A DNA stretch of 64,000 nucleotides from Solobacterium sp. Its GTDB lineage: Bacteria; Bacillota_I; Bacilli_A; Erysipelotrichales; Erysipelotrichaceae. The notes beneath the pieces are model-generated. The model saw nothing but the letters and a program-made list of their open reading frames with translations. It was not told where the DNA came from and did not search any database. This document shows positions 2,183 through 35,785 of this stretch, in pieces. Positions within the stretch are counted from its first letter, which is position 1. Every line of letters begins with the position of its first letter. The stretch is taken from positions 1 through 64,000 of the forward strand of contig JAFUGM010000007.1 in NCBI GenBank assembly GCA_017469355.1, in the 5' to 3' direction. A program made the position numbers and the translations under genes.

Positions 2183-3013
2183 ATGAAGTATATATTTCTG
2201 GATATTGACGGGACGTTATTCAGCCCAGAGCTGGGACGGATTCCTGATAGTGCGCTGGATGCGGTAGCACAGGCACGTGCCAATGGATCGAAGGTATTTC
2301 TGTGTACGGGACGGTCATTAGCGGAATGTAATCAATATCTTCAGACGGAAGTAAATGGATTTGTATTTGCGGCTGGATCGATGGTTTATGCGGATCACAA
2401 ACGGATCTTTGATCATCCGCTGGCTAAGGAAGATGAAGGCTATCTGAAACAGCTCATCCATGAGATGGGAATGGGGTATGTGGCCGAAGGTCAGGCTGGT
2501 GGTTACTGTGATGAATTTGGATATGATGCGTTGAGTCGGTATTTTGGGGGAGTTGACTGCACGGAAGAAACCCGTAAACGCCGGGCAATGATGGAAAACT
2601 GCTTCTATCCGGAGTATTACGAACACGATGAGGAAAAGATCTATAAGATCTGCGCCTATGTAAAGCACGGTGGTCATTTTACCCCGTTAAAAAACCGTCT
2701 GCCTGAGAAATATACATTGACGGTTACCGTCCGGGATCCGGACTTTGATGACTGCGCTGAGATTACCGATGCCTCCATCACCAAAGCGACCGGTATCGCA
2801 AAGATTCTGGAATTCTATGGCGCGGATGTCAGTGATGCTGTGGGAATCGGAGACAGTGAAAATGATCTGCCAATGCTCGAATACTGTGGATTCGGTATTG
2901 CGATGGGCAATGCGATGGAATCACTGAAAGCGAAGGCGGATTGGGTAACTACACCGATTCTTGAAGATGGCATTCGAAATGCTTTCCTCCATATCGGAGT
3001 TATTGAACAGTAA
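2183..3013 (+). CDS. Cof-like HAD-family sugar/nucleotide phosphatase
   Basis: The 276-residue protein belongs to the HAD Cof/YidA type. It starts with motif I DIDGTL (nucleophile and acid-base Asp), has motif II CTGRS, a large C2 cap, and the C-terminal motif GIGDSENDLPML with the Mg-binding Asp pair followed by GIAMGNA. Such enzymes dephosphorylate sugar phosphates or flavin/pyridoxal phosphates in the cytosol; the substrate cannot be read from sequence. I chose the ATG at 2183 because GGGGGAG sits 7 nt upstream and the protein then starts right at MKYIFLDIDG; an in-frame ATG at 2156 has no ribosome site. A terminator follows directly. Confidence 0.85.
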   Translation: MKYIFLDIDGTLFSPELGRIPDSALDAVAQARANGSKVFLCTGRSLAECNQYLQTEVNGFVFAAGSMVYADHKRIFDHPLAKEDEGYLKQLIHEMGMGYVAEGQAGGYCDEFGYDALSRYFGGVDCTEETRKRRAMMENCFYPEYYEHDEEKIYKICAYVKHGGHFTPLKNRLPEKYTLTVTVRDPDFDDCAEITDASITKATGIAKILEFYGADVSDAVGIGDSENDLPMLEYCGFGIAMGNAMESLKAKADWVTTPILEDGIRNAFLHIGVIEQ

Positions 3014-3037
3014 GGGATGAGACAGAACATCCCTTTT
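3014..3037 (+). terminator. Terminator after the HAD gene
   Basis: GGGATG (3014-3019) pairs with CATCCC (3028-3033), followed by TTTT. Confidence 0.7.
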
Positions 3038-3046
3038 CTATATACG

Positions 3047-3069
3047 AAAAACCCGTGGTTTCCCACGGG
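3047..3069 (-). terminator. Terminator of the CHAP gene
   Basis: CCCGTGG (3052-3058) and CCACGGG (3063-3069) form a 7-bp stem. On the minus strand it is followed by a T run (AAAAA at 3047-3051), correctly placed after the stop at 3099. Confidence 0.75.
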
Positions 3070-3098
3070 ATGATGCTCGCAATTCTCGTTCACTTTAC

Positions 3099-3575
3099 TT
3101 AATAAAGATAGATATATCCGTAAAGTGCCTGCCAGGAACGGGGATAATACGCAGGGAACCAACCTTCATGGTATCCACCGCAATAACCTCCTTCTCTGAC
3201 ATAAATCATTGAACCGTCTTCACTGACGGCACTGACATATCCAACATGGTTGGACCATACAACAATACTGTTCTCCACTGGTACGGACGATACATAGTAT
3301 CCCATCGATGCCGCACTGTTCAGCCAGCTGCCAGCTCGCCCGAAGGCGGGCAGGGCAATGCCGGTGGTTTCATAGGCAATCTGCCATGCGGACCATGTGC
3401 AGTTGCCATAGCCTCCCCAATAGGGGTTATATGCCTGGGGTGCTTCCCAGGAGGTCTCAGCTTCCCATTCCTGTGGGTCGTCCCATTCCTCTGCCTGTAC
3501 GGTGGTGGTGGTCCCCATCAGAATCCCTGCTGTAAGAATTGCGTTCATCACTTTTCTGAATCCTTTGAATTTCAT
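3099..3575 (-). CDS. Secreted CHAP-domain peptidoglycan amidase/endopeptidase
   Basis: The 158-residue protein starts with a signal peptide (basic start, hydrophobic MNAILTAGILMGTTTT, likely cleavage near VQA-EE). A short acidic, Trp-rich linker follows, and then one CHAP domain (about residues 50-158). The catalytic Cys lies in NCTWSAWQ and the His in NHVGYVSAV. CHAP enzymes cut the peptide part of peptidoglycan outside the membrane. It is clearly paralogous to the CHAP domain of the larger protein at 59737-61122 (same NCTW-AWQ, AG-WLN and GYIYL blocks) but lacks the coiled coil. An AGGAG site precedes the ATG. It is transcribed alone, divergent from metA. Confidence 0.85.
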   Translation of the reverse strand: MKFKGFRKVMNAILTAGILMGTTTTVQAEEWDDPQEWEAETSWEAPQAYNPYWGGYGNCTWSAWQIAYETTGIALPAFGRAGSWLNSAASMGYYVSSVPVENSIVVWSNHVGYVSAVSEDGSMIYVREGGYCGGYHEGWFPAYYPRSWQALYGYIYLY

Positions 3576-3900
3576 AATCAGGATGCTCCTTTCAGGTCCT
3601 TTTTGGACACTTCGGGCAGTTTAACGCTCCAGAAACACCCCGTCAACAAAGAGAAAAATGTCACAAAATTAAGCGGTTACATCCGAAAACGCTTTCATTA
3701 CATGCATGCATATACATTCTCAAGTGCGCATCAAATAAAGCTTTCCTTCACTGGACATTTAGAAACAACATGAATGCATGTATATATAGAGAAAACCTAT
3801 AGTTTCAATAAACATTTAGTATGTGAAACAACGGACAGATTTCCGCTTCAAAATGTTACAATTCTAATAATTATTAGAGTTAAGGAAAGGAGGAGAGGAA
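3576..3900. promoter_or_regulatory. Divergent intergenic region with cre-like box and palindrome
   Basis: These 325 nt between the CHAP gene and metA hold no gene. A near-perfect CcpA cre box, CGAAAACGCTTTCA, lies at 3684-3697 (one mismatch to the symmetric core TGAAAACGCTTTCA). A perfect 14-bp palindrome, CTAATAATTATTAG, lies at 3864-3877, just downstream of a possible TACAAT -10 box (3857-3862) for metA. No S-box or T-box leader is visible upstream of metA, so methionine control, if present, must use another mechanism. Confidence 0.45.
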
Positions 3901-4863
3901 ATGCCTATTAAGATCCCTGCGGGACTCCCGGCACGACAGACACTGGAATCGGAGAATATTTTCGTCATGGACAGCGATCGTGCCGTCTCACAGGATATTC
4001 GTCCTCTCCATATTCTGATCCTGAATCTGATGCCGACAAAGATCGCAACGGAGACTCAGCTTGCCAGGCTTCTGGGAAATACGCCGATCCAGGTGGATAT
4101 GGAATTACTGCGGGTACGCACGCATATCGCAAAGAATGTTTCGGCAGAACACATGATTACCTATTATCGTACTTTTGAAGAAGTGAAGGATCGCTTCTAT
4201 GACGGAATGATTATTACCGGAGCTCCGGTGGAACAGATGGAGTTTGAAGAGGTGGAGTACTGGTCAGAACTCTGTGAAATCATGGAATGGACCAAGACAC
4301 ATGTCTACAGCACATTCCACATCTGCTGGGGAGCTCAGGCTGCGCTGTACTATCACTATGGTGTTCCAAAATATCCGTTGCCGGAAAAACTGTTTGGAAT
4401 CTACCCTCATAAAGTGACACATAAGGGATCGATTCTCTTCCGCGGGTTCGATGATATCTTCCTCGTTCCGCAATCCCGCCATACAACAATTTATCGAGAG
4501 GATATTGAAAAAGTTAAGGAGCTCAAGATTCTTTCTGAAAGTGATGAAGCAGGCGTATATGCGGTTTCAACGGACGGAGGGACACAGATCTTTATCACCG
4601 GGCATTCCGAATATGATTCCAAAACACTGGAACAGGAGTACCTGCGTGACAAGAATGCCGGACTTCCGATTCATGTGCCGAGAAACTATTATCCTGACGA
4701 TGATGATACGAAAGAGCCGATTAATTCCTGGCGAAGCAGTGCAAATCTGCTTTACAGCAACTGGCTGAATTACTTTGTTTATCAGAATACTCCATACGAT
4801 CTCAGTACCTTATGGGAAATGCGCAGAACCTCAGTGAACACGAAGGATGAACTCGATCACTGA
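3901..4863 (+). CDS. metA: Homoserine O-acetyltransferase (MetA type)
   Basis: The 320-residue protein activates homoserine for methionine synthesis in the cytosol. It is a full-length Met[11 protein letters not shown] start, [13 protein letters not shown], the catalytic Cys142 in [10 protein letters not shown] and the catalytic His in TGHSEYD. Residue 111 is Glu (GAPVEQ). In characterised MetA proteins Glu at this position selects acetyl-CoA, whereas Gly selects succinyl-CoA, so I predict an acetyltransferase despite common annotation as succinyltransferase. The start has a strong AGGAGAGG site. No other methionine genes adjoin it. Confidence 0.92.
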
Positions 4864-27568: not shown

Positions 27569-28231
27569 ATGGAAGACTTTATGAAAAACGTAACCGTATT
27601 TGATCATCCGCTGATTGCCCACAAGGTAACACATCTCTGTGATGTGAATACCGGATCCAAGGAGTTTGGAGAACTGGTCAATGAGATCGCTTCCCTGATG
27701 GGATATGAAGCGCTGAAAGACCTTCCCTTAAAAGACGTTGAAGTAAAGGCACCCTTAGCGACATTTGACTCTCCGGTGCTTGCGGAAGACTTTACGATTG
27801 TCCCGATTTTAAGAGCGGGACTTGGCATGGTGGATGGTCTGCGCATGTTATGTCCCACGGCAAAAGTCGGCCATGTCGGACTGTATCGTGATGAAGAAAC
27901 ACTGCTTCCTAAAACCTATTACTTCAAGCTTCCAGTAGATGTGGCAGATGGTCAGGTGATTATTGTTGATCCGGCACTTGCGACAGGAGGAAGTGTGGAT
28001 GCGGCGATTGATTTCATCAAGAAGGAAGGCTGCACACGCATTAAAGTAATGTGCATTTTCGCTTCTGAAGTCGGTGTGCGGATGTTAGCAGAGCGGCATC
28101 CGGATGTTCCGATCTACTGTGCCCGCTATATTGAGGGAGAGCTGGATGAACACGGCTATATTCCTACCGCTGCAGGTGATGCGGGTGATCGCATTAACGG
28201 AACGGTCAGCTATAAGCCGAAAGCAGAATGA
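27569..28231 (+). CDS. upp: Uracil phosphoribosyltransferase
   Basis: The 220-residue enzyme makes UMP from uracil and PRPP. It has VTVFDHPLIAHKVT, the RAGLGMVDG segment, the PRPP loop IIVDPALATGGSVDAAI and the C-terminal GDAGDRINGT uracil-binding loop. An in-frame ATG at 27581 would match the usual start more closely, but the GAGG site spacing favours 27569. It pairs functionally with the nearby uracil permease and overlaps the next gene by 4 nt. Confidence 0.93.
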   Translation: MEDFMKNVTVFDHPLIAHKVTHLCDVNTGSKEFGELVNEIASLMGYEALKDLPLKDVEVKAPLATFDSPVLAEDFTIVPILRAGLGMVDGLRMLCPTAKVGHVGLYRDEETLLPKTYYFKLPVDVADGQVIIVDPALATGGSVDAAIDFIKKEGCTRIKVMCIFASEVGVRMLAERHPDVPIYCARYIEGELDEHGYIPTAAGDAGDRINGTVSYKPKAE

Positions 28232-29043
28232 CAAACACGATGGAGATTACTCCCCAGGTATGTGAGGCAGTGCGGCGTGCGGCAGCCATACTGGAAGGGC
28301 GGCCAGAACAGGTCATTCAGAAAGGAAACAACTCCAACTACGTAACTGATGCGGACCTCAGGGTTCAACAGTCACTTGAGCATGATCTGACGGCGCTGAT
28401 TCCGGGCAGTGTTGTGCTTGGGGAAGAAAACAAGGTTTGGAACCATGATAGTTCGTACGCATGGATTGTTGACCCGATTGACGGAACTTCCAATTTTATA
28501 CGAGATCTAGGGGCATCCTGTATTTCAGTGGCACTCATGAAAGGGGAAGAACTGATCTCCGGTGTGATTTACAATCCATATCGGAATGAGTTGTTTTATG
28601 GTGAAACCGGATGCGGCGCCTGGTTGAATGGCACACGCATTCATGTGTCGGATCGGGACTATGCCCATTCGCATCTCTGTGCCGCAATGAGCCTGTATGA
28701 TAAGCGGTTTGCGCCGCAGTGCTTCCGTATTATTGAACGGATATATGAACATACGGATGATTTACGAAGATTTGGCTCCGCAGCCATGGAGGTGGCACAG
28801 TTAGCAGCGGGACGAGTGGAACTGTATTTTGAAATTCGCATCGCCCCATGGGACGTGGCGGCCGGCGCACTGTTAATTCAGGAAGCAGGAGGGGTTTATG
28901 AATGCCTGTATGATAAGGGAATGCAGGCGGACAAAATGTTTCCGTTTATAGCCGCAAATAGCCCAGAGAACTTCGAACAGCTAAGAAGAATTGTCACAGA
29001 AGAACTCCCTGTGATTCCATATCCGCAGAATCTTGTGCTTTAA
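28228..29043 (+). CDS. Inositol monophosphatase family protein
   Basis: The 271-residue protein has the metal-binding motifs of the IMPase/SuhB/CysQ fold: GEEN, the WIVDPIDGTSNF core and the late WDVAAGALLIQEAGG. Such enzymes hydrolyse inositol phosphates, 3',5'-bisphosphonucleosides or related compounds; the exact substrate is not readable. It overlaps the end of upp (ATGA), so the two are co-translated. Confidence 0.88.
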   Translation: MTNTMEITPQVCEAVRRAAAILEGRPEQVIQKGNNSNYVTDADLRVQQSLEHDLTALIPGSVVLGEENKVWNHDSSYAWIVDPIDGTSNFIRDLGASCISVALMKGEELISGVIYNPYRNELFYGETGCGAWLNGTRIHVSDRDYAHSHLCAAMSLYDKRFAPQCFRIIERIYEHTDDLRRFGSAAMEVAQLAAGRVELYFEIRIAPWDVAAGALLIQEAGGVYECLYDKGMQADKMFPFIAANSPENFEQLRRIVTEELPVIPYPQNLVL

Positions 29044-29208: not shown

Positions 29209-29820
29209 TCATTTATAGATCTCAAAATTATGGAGAAGTACGATATACAGCACATCGAAGATACAGCAGATCAACCCCATAATACAGATGTAGGGATTAA
29301 AATCCCAGACAACAGTCATCAGTATGGTTGGGGCCAGAGTGCCAATCCATTTTGCAACAGCGATTACGGGAGATTGCCCACGGGTGCTGTTTCTGCGAAA
29401 TAACATCACTACAAACAGGATGGACATCGCAGCGTTCTGCGCAAAGGCGGAATACTGTGCCGCAGGCAGTGCATCAAACGACAGGAAGAATGCCAGCTGT
29501 AACAGTACGCAGGTCGCAAAGGACAACAGCGAGAATGGCACAAAGTATTTCCTTGTATTCTGCGGGAACTCCTTCTTTCCGAATTTGAAGTAGGTATATA
29601 CGATAACCGCGTCCAGACACATCCATACCAGGTTCACAATTGCCTGGAGCTGAACGCTTTCTAAAAGGTCATGAATCGTATAAATTGTCTCCCACGCAAT
29701 ATTCAATCCTAATGCATACAGCGGCATTGCGTAGGTTTTATCACGGAATCCGACTCTGATACATTCGATATAAACGATGGACCATGCAATTCCGCTCACA
29801 AGCTGTAAAAATGCTTCCAT
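29209..29820 (-). CDS. Seven-helix membrane protein resembling PaxB/Pyr4-type terpene cyclases
   Basis: The 203-residue protein is almost entirely membrane helices. The segment YAMPLYALGLNIAWETIY (residues 30-47) closely resembles the hallmark of the fungal membrane terpene cyclases of meroterpenoid pathways (PaxB, Pyr4, Trt1), which have a Trp-Glu at this site. The C-terminal helix CCIFDVLYIVLL carries an Asp where that family has its second essential acid. These enzymes cyclise prenylated aromatic substrates in the membrane. No prenyltransferase gene is adjacent, so substrate and activity are open. AGGAGG precedes the ATG. Palindromic operators of the divergent TetR gene cover its promoter. 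Confidence 0.55.
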   Translation of the reverse strand: MEAFLQLVSGIAWSIVYIECIRVGFRDKTYAMPLYALGLNIAWETIYTIHDLLESVQLQAIVNLVWMCLDAVIVYTYFKFGKKEFPQNTRKYFVPFSLLSFATCVLLQLAFFLSFDALPAAQYSAFAQNAAMSILFVVMLFRRNSTRGQSPVIAVAKWIGTLAPTILMTVVWDFNPYICIMGLICCIFDVLYIVLLHNFEIYK

Positions 29821-29829
29821 AACTCCTCC

Positions 29830-29881
29830 TTGACACGTGTCAGTCTTGTTGTAAAATAGCTAAAAAGTCTGACGTGTGTCA
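29830..29881. promoter_or_regulatory. Divergent promoters with two TetR-type palindromes
   Basis: TGACACGTGTCA (29831-29842) is a perfect palindrome and TGACGTGTGTCA (29870-29881) a near copy, with centres 39 bp apart. Plus strand: TTGACA (29830-29835), 16-nt spacer, TAAAAT (29852-29857). Minus strand: TTGACA inside the right palindrome, 18-nt spacer, TATTTT. Each -35 box thus lies within one palindrome, so one repressor could shut both genes. Confidence 0.7.
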
Positions 29882-29938
29882 ATGTATTGTCATAAAGTCA
29901 GACATAAATCGTATTCTGTAAGACTTTCGGAGGTGAAA

Positions 29939-30490
29939 ATGTATCAGGGAACCAATCCGTCGGCGCTCCGTTCGCGGGCGTGGATTACCGAAGCTCTGAT
30001 GGAGCTTCTTAAGACGAAGACATATCAGGAAATTACGGTAAAGGACATCTGTCGTAAAGCTGATCTTTCAAGACAGACGTTTTATCAGATTTTTGAATCA
30101 AAGGATGAAGTGATGATCTTTCAATTCAGTGAATTGTTTTCACAGTTTAGAGAATCAGGGAAGGCGTTCAGTGAAGTGACATTAAAGGAGCTTTCCATCC
30201 GCTTCTATGAATTCTTTCAGACACATCAGGAGTTTCTTGGTGTTCTGATCGAAAATAATATGTCATATCTTCTGGAACAGGAATTTGAACGGTATCTTCC
30301 TCAGATTGATCTGTTCCGCCGCATCAATGAAACAGAACCATATCCGGATTACTCCATTTCCTACCTTGCGGGAGCGTTATCCCGGATATTGATTCACTGG
30401 TATGAAAAGGGGTTGGATCTTCCTTCGGAAGTGCTTGGATCGCTTACCGAACAAATCGTTTCAGGCAGCGCGTTCCAGAACTATCAGTAA
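29939..30490 (+). CDS. TetR/AcrR-family repressor
   Basis: The 183-residue protein has an N-terminal TetR helix-turn-helix (ITVKDICRKADLSRQTFYQIFESKDE, about residues 33-58) and an all-helical ligand domain with no recognised ligand. The ATG at 29939 has GGAGGTG upstream; an in-frame ATG at 29876 would lie inside the operator and is rejected. It is divergent from the membrane-cyclase-like gene and very probably represses that gene and itself through the palindromes in between. Confidence 0.85.
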   Translation: MYQGTNPSALRSRAWITEALMELLKTKTYQEITVKDICRKADLSRQTFYQIFESKDEVMIFQFSELFSQFRESGKAFSEVTLKELSIRFYEFFQTHQEFLGVLIENNMSYLLEQEFERYLPQIDLFRRINETEPYPDYSISYLAGALSRILIHWYEKGLDLPSEVLGSLTEQIVSGSAFQNYQ

Positions 30491-30516: not shown

Positions 30517-30960
30517 TTATTCACCCCAGAGAATGGGAACAGATATTGAGGAGGCTGATGTTTCTTCTTCCACATAACTCCGCATGGCAGCAGGGAATGG
30601 GGAGGGAATATTCAGAAAACTTGATACCCTCTCATAAAACCTTACTAACGCAATGGAACCAAAGGACTCATCAAAGTCAGCAGGATCTTCTTTCAGAAAT
30701 TGAAGGTCCTGTTTTAACATGATGCGAAGGGATTCCGGAATGGAATCAAACGGGCGTTCTGCTTCACTCAGGTGGAGCTGTTCTACCAGTGTTTTCGCTT
30801 CCGGTAACAGAGCGCTCAACGAACGAATGAAGTATTTCAGTTCTCCGTTGGCTAATGCAAGGGCATTTTCCTCACCAGGAATAGTTTCGTCAAGGAAGAG
30901 AAACCCTCCCTGAATGTATTCCCACGATTCTGCCAGTTTTTTAATTTCAAGACTCATCAT
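30517..30960 (-). CDS. Conserved-looking cytosolic protein, unknown function
   Basis: The 147-residue protein is acidic, Leu/Glu-rich and probably helical, with no membrane segment or known motif. Two adjacent ATG codons (30960 and 30957) could start it; CGGAGAA lies about 10 nt upstream. It is convergent with the TetR gene. I do not recognise it. Confidence 0.55.
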   Translation of the reverse strand: MMSLEIKKLAESWEYIQGGFLFLDETIPGEENALALANGELKYFIRSLSALLPEAKTLVEQLHLSEAERPFDSIPESLRIMLKQDLQFLKEDPADFDESFGSIALVRFYERVSSFLNIPSPFPAAMRSYVEEETSASSISVPILWGE

Positions 30961-31409: not shown

Positions 31410-31961
31410 TCAGTCAAGCAGATCGGTCAGACTGACACTGAGGAGTTCCAGAATGTTTCGGGCAACTTCATGGGTGTCTTTGGTATTTTCTTTGCGGAAT
31501 ACATACTCACGGATATGGAATGCCAGGCTTTCCGCATAATACCTTCCAAGGAATTCATTTGTATACTGCTCAATCACTGCCGGACGTCGGTGATCCACAA
31601 AATACTCTGTCAACGACCTGGCCAGGTTCATGCGTACCATATCCTCAAAGCTGTTCTGACCGACAACCGAATAGGCGACACGATAAAACTCACGATTCTC
31701 GTCAATCGTAGCCAGAATGTCCCTGACAATCTCGGCTGAATCATGAGATGTTGAGTTCTTCAGAATACGTTCAAAGTCCAGTCTGACAATGGTATTCAGA
31801 CAGTCATATTTATCTTCAAAATAGTTGTAGAAGGTTGCCCGTATGACTCCAGCCTGATCACAGATCTGTTTGATGGTTATCTTTTCAAACAGTTGTCTTA
31901 ACATCAATTTCCGAAGGCTCTCACACAGGTAGAACCTCATCATTTCCTTATGGCTTTCCAT
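31410..31961 (-). CDS. TetR/AcrR-family regulator
   Basis: The 183-residue protein has a TetR helix-turn-helix (ITIKQICDQAGVIRATFYNYFEDKYD, about residues 27-52) followed by a helical C-terminal domain of the type seen in DhaS-like regulators. It lies 9 nt downstream of the MntP-like transporter gene on the same strand, so the two form an operon and the regulator may control that transporter. Confidence 0.82.
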   Translation of the reverse strand: MESHKEMMRFYLCESLRKLMLRQLFEKITIKQICDQAGVIRATFYNYFEDKYDCLNTIVRLDFERILKNSTSHDSAEIVRDILATIDENREFYRVAYSVVGQNSFEDMVRMNLARSLTEYFVDHRRPAVIEQYTNEFLGRYYAESLAFHIREYVFRKENTKDTHEVARNILELLSVSLTDLLD

Positions 31962-31970
31962 GGCTCACCT

Positions 31971-32546
31971 TCAGAACTTAGGAACGATGACATAGATGTT
32001 TAAAAGATAGATGCTGAACAGAATCATAAGCGCTCCGCTGCTGATTCCGACAACCCTTGCCAGGATAGGACCTTGATGGTATCCCACCTGGAGTGCTGCC
32101 AAGGTACAGATGAACGTGATGCTCATCATTGTAATGACACCGATAGATAAGGAAATACCGATCAGGAAACAACCAGATCCGATCAGCAGGGTAGGAACGG
32201 AAGAGCGGACAGCCAGACGAAGGCAGTTAATTTCATTGAAGTCTCGATCCAGCTTTTCTTCAGCTTTTCGTGAGAAGAATGACCGGGTAATGATGTATAT
32301 TCCTAACGCAAATACAATCATGCATGCGGTAAGAATTTCGGTTCTTCGAATCATTAACTCGCGGAATATGACGGAAAGTAAATAGCCGACGATTACAGAC
32401 AAGCCACTTACGGCAGCGCACAGTAAAGAATAAATAATACTTTTGCGAAGCGTTAATTCCCGCAGAGAGGCTCCTTTAATTAACATGACGACAAAGCCGT
32501 CAAGTGAAAAACTCAAAAATAATAACAACACATGGATCAGTTTCAT
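31971..32546 (-). CDS. MntP-like membrane transporter
   Basis: The 191-residue protein has six helices in two related halves. The first begins LSFSLDGFVVMLIKGASLRE, resembling the MntP manganese-efflux pattern (SMDAFAVSIAKG) with the conserved Asp retained. The second half has SVPTLLIGSGCFLIGISL in place of the second conserved Asp motif, so metal export is only a suggestion. It is followed by a TetR gene. Confidence 0.6.
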   Translation of the reverse strand: MKLIHVLLLFLSFSLDGFVVMLIKGASLRELTLRKSIIYSLLCAAVSGLSVIVGYLLSVIFRELMIRRTEILTACMIVFALGIYIITRSFFSRKAEEKLDRDFNEINCLRLAVRSSVPTLLIGSGCFLIGISLSIGVITMMSITFICTLAALQVGYHQGPILARVVGISSGALMILFSIYLLNIYVIVPKF

Positions 32547-33771: not shown

Positions 33772-33890
33772 AACTACACATTCAATGACAAGGGGCATTG
33801 TGGCGGAAATAATGAGTGTTATCTGCCAAGCGTCGTCATGATATGGCATTACAAGACCATGAATTCAGTTTCGTAAAAAAGATGGAAAAA

Positions 33891-33978
33891 TGACAAAACT
33901 GCACTTGATTTATCGTTCCGTCTGCTGCATAGTATTTGTGCAGTTACGTCAATTATCAGAAAAAATGACAAAACTGCA
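33891..33978 (+). promoter_or_regulatory. Repeated operator-like sites upstream of the AbiEi gene
   Basis: TGACAAAACTGCA occurs at 33891-33903 and 33966-33978, and an inverted, slightly diverged copy TGCAGTTACGTCA at 33939-33951. A TTGATT box (33905-33910) and CATAGT (17-nt spacer) between them could be the promoter. AbiEi antitoxins are known to autoregulate by binding inverted repeats, so this is a plausible operator set. Confidence 0.55.
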
Positions 33979-34009
33979 AAAGCCAAAAAGCAGAAAGGCG
34001 GTGATTGCT

Positions 34010-34750
34010 ATGGCAGAGACGGGAAGAATAGCAAGCTTTCTGATGGATAATCCATCTTTTTCCACAAAGGAATTCGTCGGCATGGTGCGGGAGACACAGG
34101 CAGCCTACTCTGACAGAAAGGCATACCGTATGCTGCGGGATCTTCAGGATAATGGAAAAATCATGAAGATTGGACGGGGGAGATACTCGAACATCTCCGT
34201 AAAAAGGCAGTACAGATTTGAGGCATCCCCGCAGGTAAAGGAGATCACGCAGCTGATCAGGACGCAGTACCCGCTCGTATCATTTCAGGTGTGGGAGCTG
34301 TACCAATGGAATGAATTCGTCAACCACCAGTTGGCGCATAATACGTTCTTTATCGAGGTGGAAAATCCTTTAGAGACCACGATATTCGAATACCTTACTG
34401 AACGATATCCTAAAGTTTTGCTGAGTCCGGACACGGAAACCTATTACCGCTACCGGGCGGACGATATGGTTATCGTGCAGCGTCTGATTACCGGTGCGCC
34501 TGCGCCGATTCCGGGCACATGTCAGGCGTCTCTGGAAAAGCTTCTTGTGGATATCTTCAGCAAAAAGCTTACCGGACAGCTGATTGAGCGGGCGGAGTAC
34601 CGCCGGATCTATGAGGATGCCTTTGGAAAATATGCAATTAACGAGTCTGCGCTGTTCCGTTATGCGGGCAGACGGCATCTGGAAGGAGATATCCGCGAAT
34701 TTATTGATTGTGATACGGATATCCGGCTCAGACTGGAGGAGAGAGCATGA
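34010..34750 (+). CDS. AbiEi-type antitoxin/transcriptional regulator
   Basis: The 246-residue protein has an N-terminal winged-helix region (residues 1-65: FSTKEFVGMVRETQAAYSDRKAYRMLRDLQDNGKI then GRGRYS), as in AbiEi antitoxins and DUF6577-like proteins. A C-terminal domain follows with VSFQVWELYQWNEFVNHQL. The reading frame is open from 33890, but that stretch contains the repeats; the ATG at 34010 has AAGGCGG upstream and gives the natural domain start. Its stop overlaps the toxin start (ATGA). In AbiE systems this protein represses the operon and counters the nucleotidyltransferase toxin without direct binding. Confidence 0.72.
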   Translation: MAETGRIASFLMDNPSFSTKEFVGMVRETQAAYSDRKAYRMLRDLQDNGKIMKIGRGRYSNISVKRQYRFEASPQVKEITQLIRTQYPLVSFQVWELYQWNEFVNHQLAHNTFFIEVENPLETTIFEYLTERYPKVLLSPDTETYYRYRADDMVIVQRLITGAPAPIPGTCQASLEKLLVDIFSKKLTGQLIERAEYRRIYEDAFGKYAINESALFRYAGRRHLEGDIREFIDCDTDIRLRLEERA

Positions 34751-35785
34751 TCGACAAGAGAATATACGATTTGGATTATGTGCGCGAGCTGCAGGCAAGA
34801 TACAAGACGGATCCAGGTCTTTTGGAGAGGGTGTTGTACGCATTTGGGCTCCTGGAGGCATTAGGTGGGAATGAAGTTCACATTCAAGGGCGGCTCCAGT
34901 ATGATGCTGCTATTGGATCATCCGGTTCGCCTTTCCACTGACATTGATATAATCGTGGATCCGGGAACAGATGTGGATGGATATATAGAGGCGGCAGGGA
35001 CGATTTTCCCATTTCTGCGGAAGGAGGAAGACATCCGGAAAGGCCGCAACAATATTGAGAAGCGCCACTTCAAGTTCATCTATTTTTCGCCTATTCGGCA
35101 GGCAGAGTTCTATATTTTGCTGGACATCGTTTTCATGGAGTCGCCGTATGATCAGGTAGTGACGAAGCCTATTAAAAACGATCTTCTCGCGACAGAGCCG
35201 GAAGACCTGACAGTCACCATGCCGACGCTGGAATGCCTTCTGGGAGATAAGCTTACTGCGTTTGCCCCGCATACAACCGGGGTTCCGCTCGGGAAGAAGA
35301 AGGAACTGGAGATTGCAAAGCAGCTGTTTGATGTGTCGACTCTTGCGGAGCAGATGCAGGATCAGCTTCAGTTTCGGATGACCTATGATAAAGCAGTGGC
35401 AGAAGAGCTAGCCTTTCGGGGTATAGGGCAAACCAGGGAGGATGTCTTGCGTGATACCATCCGGGCCTGTGTCAGTATTATCAGTCGCGGAGCATTTGAT
35501 GAAGGGGATTATGCGGAATACATGAAAGGAATCCGCGCTCTTACGGATCATATTCTGGGCAGAAAATTTACTCCTGAAGTAGCCGCCGAGAAAGCCTGTT
35601 CCGTAATGTGCCTCGCTGCCAGCGTACTTACCCGGACGGACTATCCGAGGATTGGCGATCCGGCAGAATATGCGAGGGCTCGCCTTGCTGGAGGACAGTA
35701 TAAGCGCCTGGCATATATCAGAAAGCGGAATCTCGAGGCCTACGGGTATCTTGTGGAGGCTACGAAAATGCTTGAAACCATATGA
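34747..35785 (+). pseudogene. AbiEii-type nucleotidyltransferase toxin, interrupted by a +1 frameshift
   Basis: The first 39 codons from 34747 (MIDKRIYDLDYVRELQARYK) stay open to 34941, but homology continues in the +1 frame from about 34865: MKFTFKGGSSMMLLLD, then LSTDIDIIVD. These are the GGS and DxD motifs of the AbiEii/DUF1814 nucleotidyltransferases. One extra G in TTAGGTGGG at about 34864 explains it. The rest, to 35785, is full length (EDLTVTMPTLECLLGDKLTA is the usual KL-A block). A GTG (34865) or ATG (34871) could restart translation and give a toxin lacking its first ~40 residues. Either the toxin is inactivated, or expression uses recoding or restart. Confidence 0.7.

Follow-up and report, generated by a model that had tools for sequence, protein, structure and literature searches.

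A stand-alone Pyr4-like membrane terpene cyclase gene beside a divergent TetR regulator in a Solobacterium genome without a UbiA match

Introduction

Pyr4-type cyclases carry out late steps in meroterpenoid pathways, and the fungal Pyr4/PaxB members work in meroterpenoid clusters, usually with prenyltransferase and epoxidase genes. The characterised bacterial Pyr4-like cyclases XiaH, TylF, GroF and ZigF, of the same family as the gene described here, are all four encoded inside terpenoid gene clusters, and Kakumu and Helfrich (2026) collected 1,107 bacterial candidates, keeping 264 with terpenoid neighbours, mainly from Actinomycetota (PMC13307353). DmtA1 from Streptomyces youssoufiensis, a drimentine-type diketopiperazine-terpene cyclase, is a seven-helix membrane protein, for which mutagenesis showed that E60 is essential, that variants of W29, W59 and Y33 are inactive and that variants of D214, N56 and Y217 are weak; it also needs D94 (PMC6173783).

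Here we describe a Pyr4-like gene in a 64,000-nucleotide stretch of a Solobacterium sp. contig (JAFUGM010000007.1, positions 1 to 64,000, hereafter the window). The enzyme family and its residues were already known; the setting, a single gene with a TetR switch and no prenyltransferase, differs. By the criterion of Kakumu and Helfrich, the gene belongs to the unstudied majority without terpenoid neighbours (PMC13307353). The first-pass annotation had called such a gene unusual in Bacillota. What it said of the setting, with its own TetR regulator and no adjacent prenyltransferase, holds, but the claim of rarity is weaker, as bacterial Pyr4-like genes had already been reported (PMC13307353).

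Results

A full-length Pyr4-like cyclase encoded as a single-gene unit

The features of the locus are as follows.

28228..29043, plus strand: inositol-monophosphatase-family gene (PF00459, E=2e-52), convergent with the cyclase gene, outside the unit and marking its boundary
29209..29820, minus strand: Pyr4-like transmembrane terpene cyclase gene, 203 aa, seven transmembrane helices, assigned from PF25129, conservation, the AlphaFold2 model and the residue match to DmtA1
29830..29857, plus strand: predicted TetR promoter, TTGACA-16-TAAAAT, 11/12, by consensus match only
29831..29842: putative operator O1 with the perfect palindrome TGACACGTGTCA, covering the TetR -35 box and lying between the start codon and the -10 box of the cyclase gene
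29853..29882, minus strand: predicted cyclase promoter, TTGACA-18-TATTTT, 10/12, by consensus match only
29870..29881: putative operator O2, which covers the cyclase -35 box and is an imperfect copy reading TGACGTGTGTCA (on the minus strand, the complement TGACACACGTCA)
29939..30490, plus strand: TetR-family regulator gene, 183 aa, divergent from the cyclase gene (PF00440 TetR_N, E=6.6e-08)

The cyclase reading frame starts with ATG, with the Shine-Dalgarno sequence AAGGAGGAG closely 5' of it, and it forms a single-gene unit with no co-directional downstream neighbour and no operon partner. In a hmmscan search against Pfam, residues 4-196 of the protein matched positions 19-221 of the 227 in PF25129 (Pyr4-TMTC) with E=1.9e-28 and a score of 100.1 bits, where the curated cut-off is 27. 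Genome contigs yielded 153 relatives of the cyclase, 80 of which were kept for an alignment of 81 rows, and PF25129 was matched by all 81 aligned proteins. The window protein is thus almost certainly a full-length Pyr4-like family member, and at the level of sequence chance is excluded as the source of the likeness. The homology to fungal PaxB/Pyr4 cyclases proposed in the first-pass annotation was borne out by the profile search, which placed the protein in the Pyr4/PaxB family and in no unrelated membrane family, and by a complete catalytic set. NCBIfam gave nothing useful with the cyclase.

Beyond the regulator, a 147-aa reading frame (30517-30960, minus strand) with no significant Pfam and no PADLOC match lies between the TetR gene and a tRNA-Pro gene. 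Farther along, the minus strand encodes another TetR-family regulator and, in tandem with it, a membrane protein that resembles MntP and is putatively involved in manganese efflux (31410-31961 and 31971-32546), and the plus strand encodes an AbiEi/AbiEii type IV toxin-antitoxin (abortive infection) pair (33890-34750 and 34865-35785; PADLOC E=1.4e-85 and 1.1e-103).

Seven catalytic residues of DmtA1 are conserved

All seven residues that are conserved family-wide among the mutagenised positions of DmtA1 are present in the window cyclase. W13, Y17, N40, W43 and E44 correspond to W29, Y33, N56, W59 and E60 of DmtA1, each shifted by 16, and D189 and Y192 to D214 and Y217, each shifted by 25; D94 of DmtA1 lies outside this mapped set. 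E44 is invariant in the 81 rows of the alignment, as are W13, Y17, N40 and W43, and D189 and Y192 do not vary among the 77 rows long enough to include their columns (77/77). Both catalytic acids of the family, the Glu of TM2 and the Asp of TM7, are therefore present and conserved. This agrees with the hallmark segment and two acids that had been picked out from the sequence alone: YAMPLYALGLNIAWE spans residues 30-44 and ends in Glu44, and the C-terminal acid is Asp189, within FDVLY in the last helix. The window protein shares with fungal Pyr4/PaxB both the full length of PF25129 and the two proposed catalytic acids, whereas the fungal proteins act in meroterpenoid clusters and the window gene stands alone.

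Further invariant residues in the alignment are W66, D70, Q128, N129, K157 and G160. By helical-face analysis, all seven helices are conserved along one side (p from 0.0005 to 0.046), and the conserved faces of TM1, TM2 and TM7 hold the DmtA1-matched residues. In their orientation, these faces are consistent with a single central cavity that both acids may face. By homology to characterised enzymes, the window cyclase probably performs protonation-initiated prenyl chemistry.

The predicted fold resembles SWEET and PQ-loop proteins

The AlphaFold2 model of the cyclase (pLDDT 95.5, pTM 0.89) consists of seven long helices. Compared with PDB structures, it came closest to the KDEL receptor (Z 15.8, 3.7 A over 188 residues), followed by cystinosin (Z 14.7) and SWEET transporters (Z 12.2), and the first unrelated chain scored Z 7.8. 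SemiSWEET fitted residues 1-80 (1.9 A over 79) and also residues 117-199 (2.4 A over 81). The model thus predicts for the cyclase the 3+1+3 fold of the PQ-loop/SWEET/KDEL-receptor superfamily, with an internal repeat of two similar, SemiSWEET-like halves. We found no paper in the open-access literature that links Pyr4-like cyclases to this fold.

The claim is limited to the fold, and common descent with PQ-loop/SWEET proteins is not claimed. The window protein matched neither the PQ-loop nor the MtN3 (SWEET) family profile, and MtN3 was matched by one of the 81 relatives (E=0.024). When the two halves were compared by hhalign with a small PQ-loop/SemiSWEET alignment, the register was the one that the fold predicts and the probabilities of 1.61 and 1.25 exceeded all 60 rotated or reversed controls (maxima 1.23 and 0.95), though they were very low. 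With values barely over the controls, sequence homology to PQ-loop repeats was not adopted.

The structural matches, with SemiSWEET lying on each half, would also suit a non-enzymatic function as a transporter or receptor, as in the SWEET, PQ-loop and KDEL-receptor proteins. We give this reading very little credence, since the sequence falls in the cyclase family and not in MtN3 or PQ-loop, the profile-profile comparison hardly rose above its controls, and the characterised Pyr4-like proteins with these residues are cyclases; those relatives whose function is known work as enzymes and not as transporters or receptors. If confirmed, the SWEET/PQ-loop fold would suggest an origin for the cyclase family and provide a structural template, which is useful because a PDB profile search by sequence gave no relative of the family.

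A divergent TetR gene and shared operator-like palindromes

The cyclase gene adjoins a divergent TetR gene, in line with the TetR control that the annotation made from the sequence alone had proposed. An initial TetR start at GTG 29876 was replaced by the likely ATG at 29939 because homologues begin MYQGTNPSALRS, and with this start the intergenic region measures about 118 bases. Palindromes of the TGACAnnTGTCA type, resembling operators, cover both divergent -35 boxes. At the position aligned with O2, the related loci L010 and L011 carry TGACACCTGTCA and L054 carries TGACACGTGTCA. The motif TGACANNTGTCA occurs seven times in 1.23 Mb of related loci, each time upstream of the cyclase gene (7/7), spread over five loci (the window, L010, L011, L025 and L054), counts that are not fully independent because three of the five loci are close relatives.

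In 19 of 85 loci, the cyclase gene has a TetR gene no more than 1.5 kb away. In Bacillota it is directly divergent in the window, L010, L011, L054, L064 and L082, and in L010, L011, L054 and L064 the adjacent divergent gene is a homologue of the window's TetR; in 11 actinobacterial loci a TetR gene stands directly upstream on the same strand. The adjacent TetR gene, the palindromes over the promoters and their conservation in relatives together point to a TetR-regulated divergent unit. By analogy with the general behaviour of TetR proteins, we infer that the regulator represses the unit and is released by a ligand. In the whole window genome, TGACANNTGTCA was present in 10 copies, compared with one of the reversed control, most of them inside genes. 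A wider TetR regulon built on these copies is unsupported, because the other genomic sites are mostly intragenic.

Prenyl pathway genes are scarce in the genome and around the cyclase

The first reading of the sequence had also noted that no prenyltransferase adjoins the cyclase gene. None does, and no UbiA match was found anywhere in the window genome, while all 14 control genomes were matched; at 98.5% completeness, a UbiA gene could nevertheless be absent from the assembly. UbiA was likewise not matched in six of 12 other Bacillota carrier genomes. The squalene/phytoene synthase family (SQS_PSY) was not found in the window genome, and its one polyprenyl synthase is encoded on a contig other than that of the cyclase. 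For the neighbourhood search we built a UbiA model that strongly recovered 23 of 30 left-out training sequences. It placed a UbiA gene within 8 kb of the cyclase in one of 85 loci, a lower bound because contig ends shorten some loci, and in 84 of the 85 no polyprenyl synthase gene was detected within that distance. Neither of these two marks of a meroterpenoid cluster was found near the cyclase gene of the window. The DmtA1 cluster, by comparison, also encodes a cyclodipeptide synthase and an enzyme resembling phytoene synthase (PMC6173783), whereas the window gene stands alone under a TetR switch in a UbiA-less Bacillota genome.

The genes of a biosynthetic pathway may lie apart, and the genome search covered the UbiA, SQS_PSY and polyprenyl synthase families, which leaves some room for a dispersed meroterpenoid pathway with a prenyltransferase elsewhere in the genome or of a non-UbiA type (ABBA, DMATS). 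Given the missing UbiA matches in a 98.5% complete genome and in six of the 12 other Bacillota carriers, and nearby genes without recognisable biosynthetic function, such a pathway is highly improbable.

Few candidate partners at related loci

Proteins of the CrtC/AsqO-like lipocalin type are encoded near the cyclase in L012, L013, L006 and L018, and L013 also has a flavin reductase. An amidohydrolase and an esterase accompany the cyclase in L082 and a MATE pump in L054, and in L028 (Nonomuraea terrae) a fusion of polyprenyl synthase and Lipocalin_9 domain (2573-4783) is encoded about 3 kb from the cyclase gene. These few candidate partners would fit prenyl chemistry or small-molecule modification. 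The CrtC-like protein was rejected as a general partner because 14 of the 15 other carrier genomes contained no match to it.

The reductive or degradative look of the neighbours in L013 and L082 and the near absence of terpenoid context would also suit a different chemistry, in which a proton-transfer enzyme, an alkene isomerase or hydratase, acts on non-terpenoid unsaturated lipids or xenobiotics; CrtC-type proteins, indeed, include hydratases. However, the window protein keeps all seven family-wide residues of a true cyclase, including aromatics of the carbocation-stabilising kind, and we consider this alternative decidedly improbable.

A patchy distribution across phyla

Relatives of the cyclase occur in Actinomycetota, Bacillota, Bacteroidota, Chloroflexota, Cyanobacteriota and archaea. 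Phylogenetically, the window cyclase clusters with those of two rumen MAGs from roe deer (77-81% identity, support 98), and its Bacillota group adjoins 48 Actinomycetota sequences. The window gene belongs to a subfamily of Actinomycetota and Bacillota that almost never stands in a terpenoid cluster. Among 100 genomes of relatives, one other carrier was found, a Solobacterium MAG of the same genus, whose cyclase is 50% identical and groups with that of an Agathobacter MAG. This low prevalence and the discordance of the tree suggest horizontal spread of the gene, with errors in MAG binning as another possible source. No homologue was found in phages, and plasmid homologues were confined to Streptomyces and Nostoc. 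L004, from another family of the same class, carries a split, divergent Pyr4-like gene with an in-frame stop (1492-2112); the match in L005 was false.

This distribution bears on whether the substrate could be endogenous, that is, a lipid of the undecaprenyl, farnesyl or other polyprenyl type that the cell supplies through its own polyprenyl synthase and converts under stress into a cyclized membrane lipid. The single polyprenyl synthase of the window genome and the fusion in L028 would agree with this, and for a gene that stands alone a ubiquitous substrate would be convenient. Yet a gene with one further carrier in 100 relatives and scattered over phyla is unlike a lipid-maintenance gene, and a polyprenyl synthase is hardly ever detected beside it, so we judge an endogenous lipid unlikely.

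Discussion

We favour, by a modest degree of belief, a stand-alone, TetR-induced prenyl cyclase of the Pyr4 type whose substrate most likely comes into the cell from its environment, because the genome has neither a UbiA nor a squalene/phytoene synthase match and the bacterium appears unable to produce prenylated compounds by the usual route. That the substrate originates outside the cell's own biosynthesis is, taken by itself, somewhat probable. TetR families can also control a cell's own biosynthetic genes, which counts against this reading.

Under the favoured reading, the regulator, a switch of the drug-sensor type, would keep expression off until it binds its ligand and leaves the two operators over the divergent -35 boxes. 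The substrate would be a free polyprenyl lipid or a small hydrophobic molecule that carries a polyprenyl chain, and it would leave the bilayer for the central cavity between the two three-helix bundles. There, Glu44 in TM2, tuned by Asn40 and Tyr17, would donate a proton to an alkene or epoxide. The folded chain and its cation could be held by Trp13, Trp43 and Trp66, and the Asp189/Tyr192 side would complete the reaction. The compound may be a prenylated product of plants, fungi or microbes, encountered in the habitat of the cell or in its membrane, and the role of the enzyme would be its modification or detoxification. Orphan members of the family may also have shifted to hydration or isomerization.

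A broader proposal, which we offer as possible but doubtful, is that the widespread Bacillota/Actinomycetota subfamily consists of inducible single-gene enzymes that act outside natural-product biosynthesis and cyclize the prenylated compounds of other organisms, and that the family arose on a SWEET/PQ-loop transporter scaffold with its acids placed at the transporter's substrate cavity.

With one enzyme, one regulator and one operator region, the locus is a small testable system, in which the operator offers a direct route to the inducer and thereby perhaps to the substrate. An intact, ligand-switched cyclase in a gut or rumen bacterium that lacks UbiA would imply a role for this family outside secondary metabolism.
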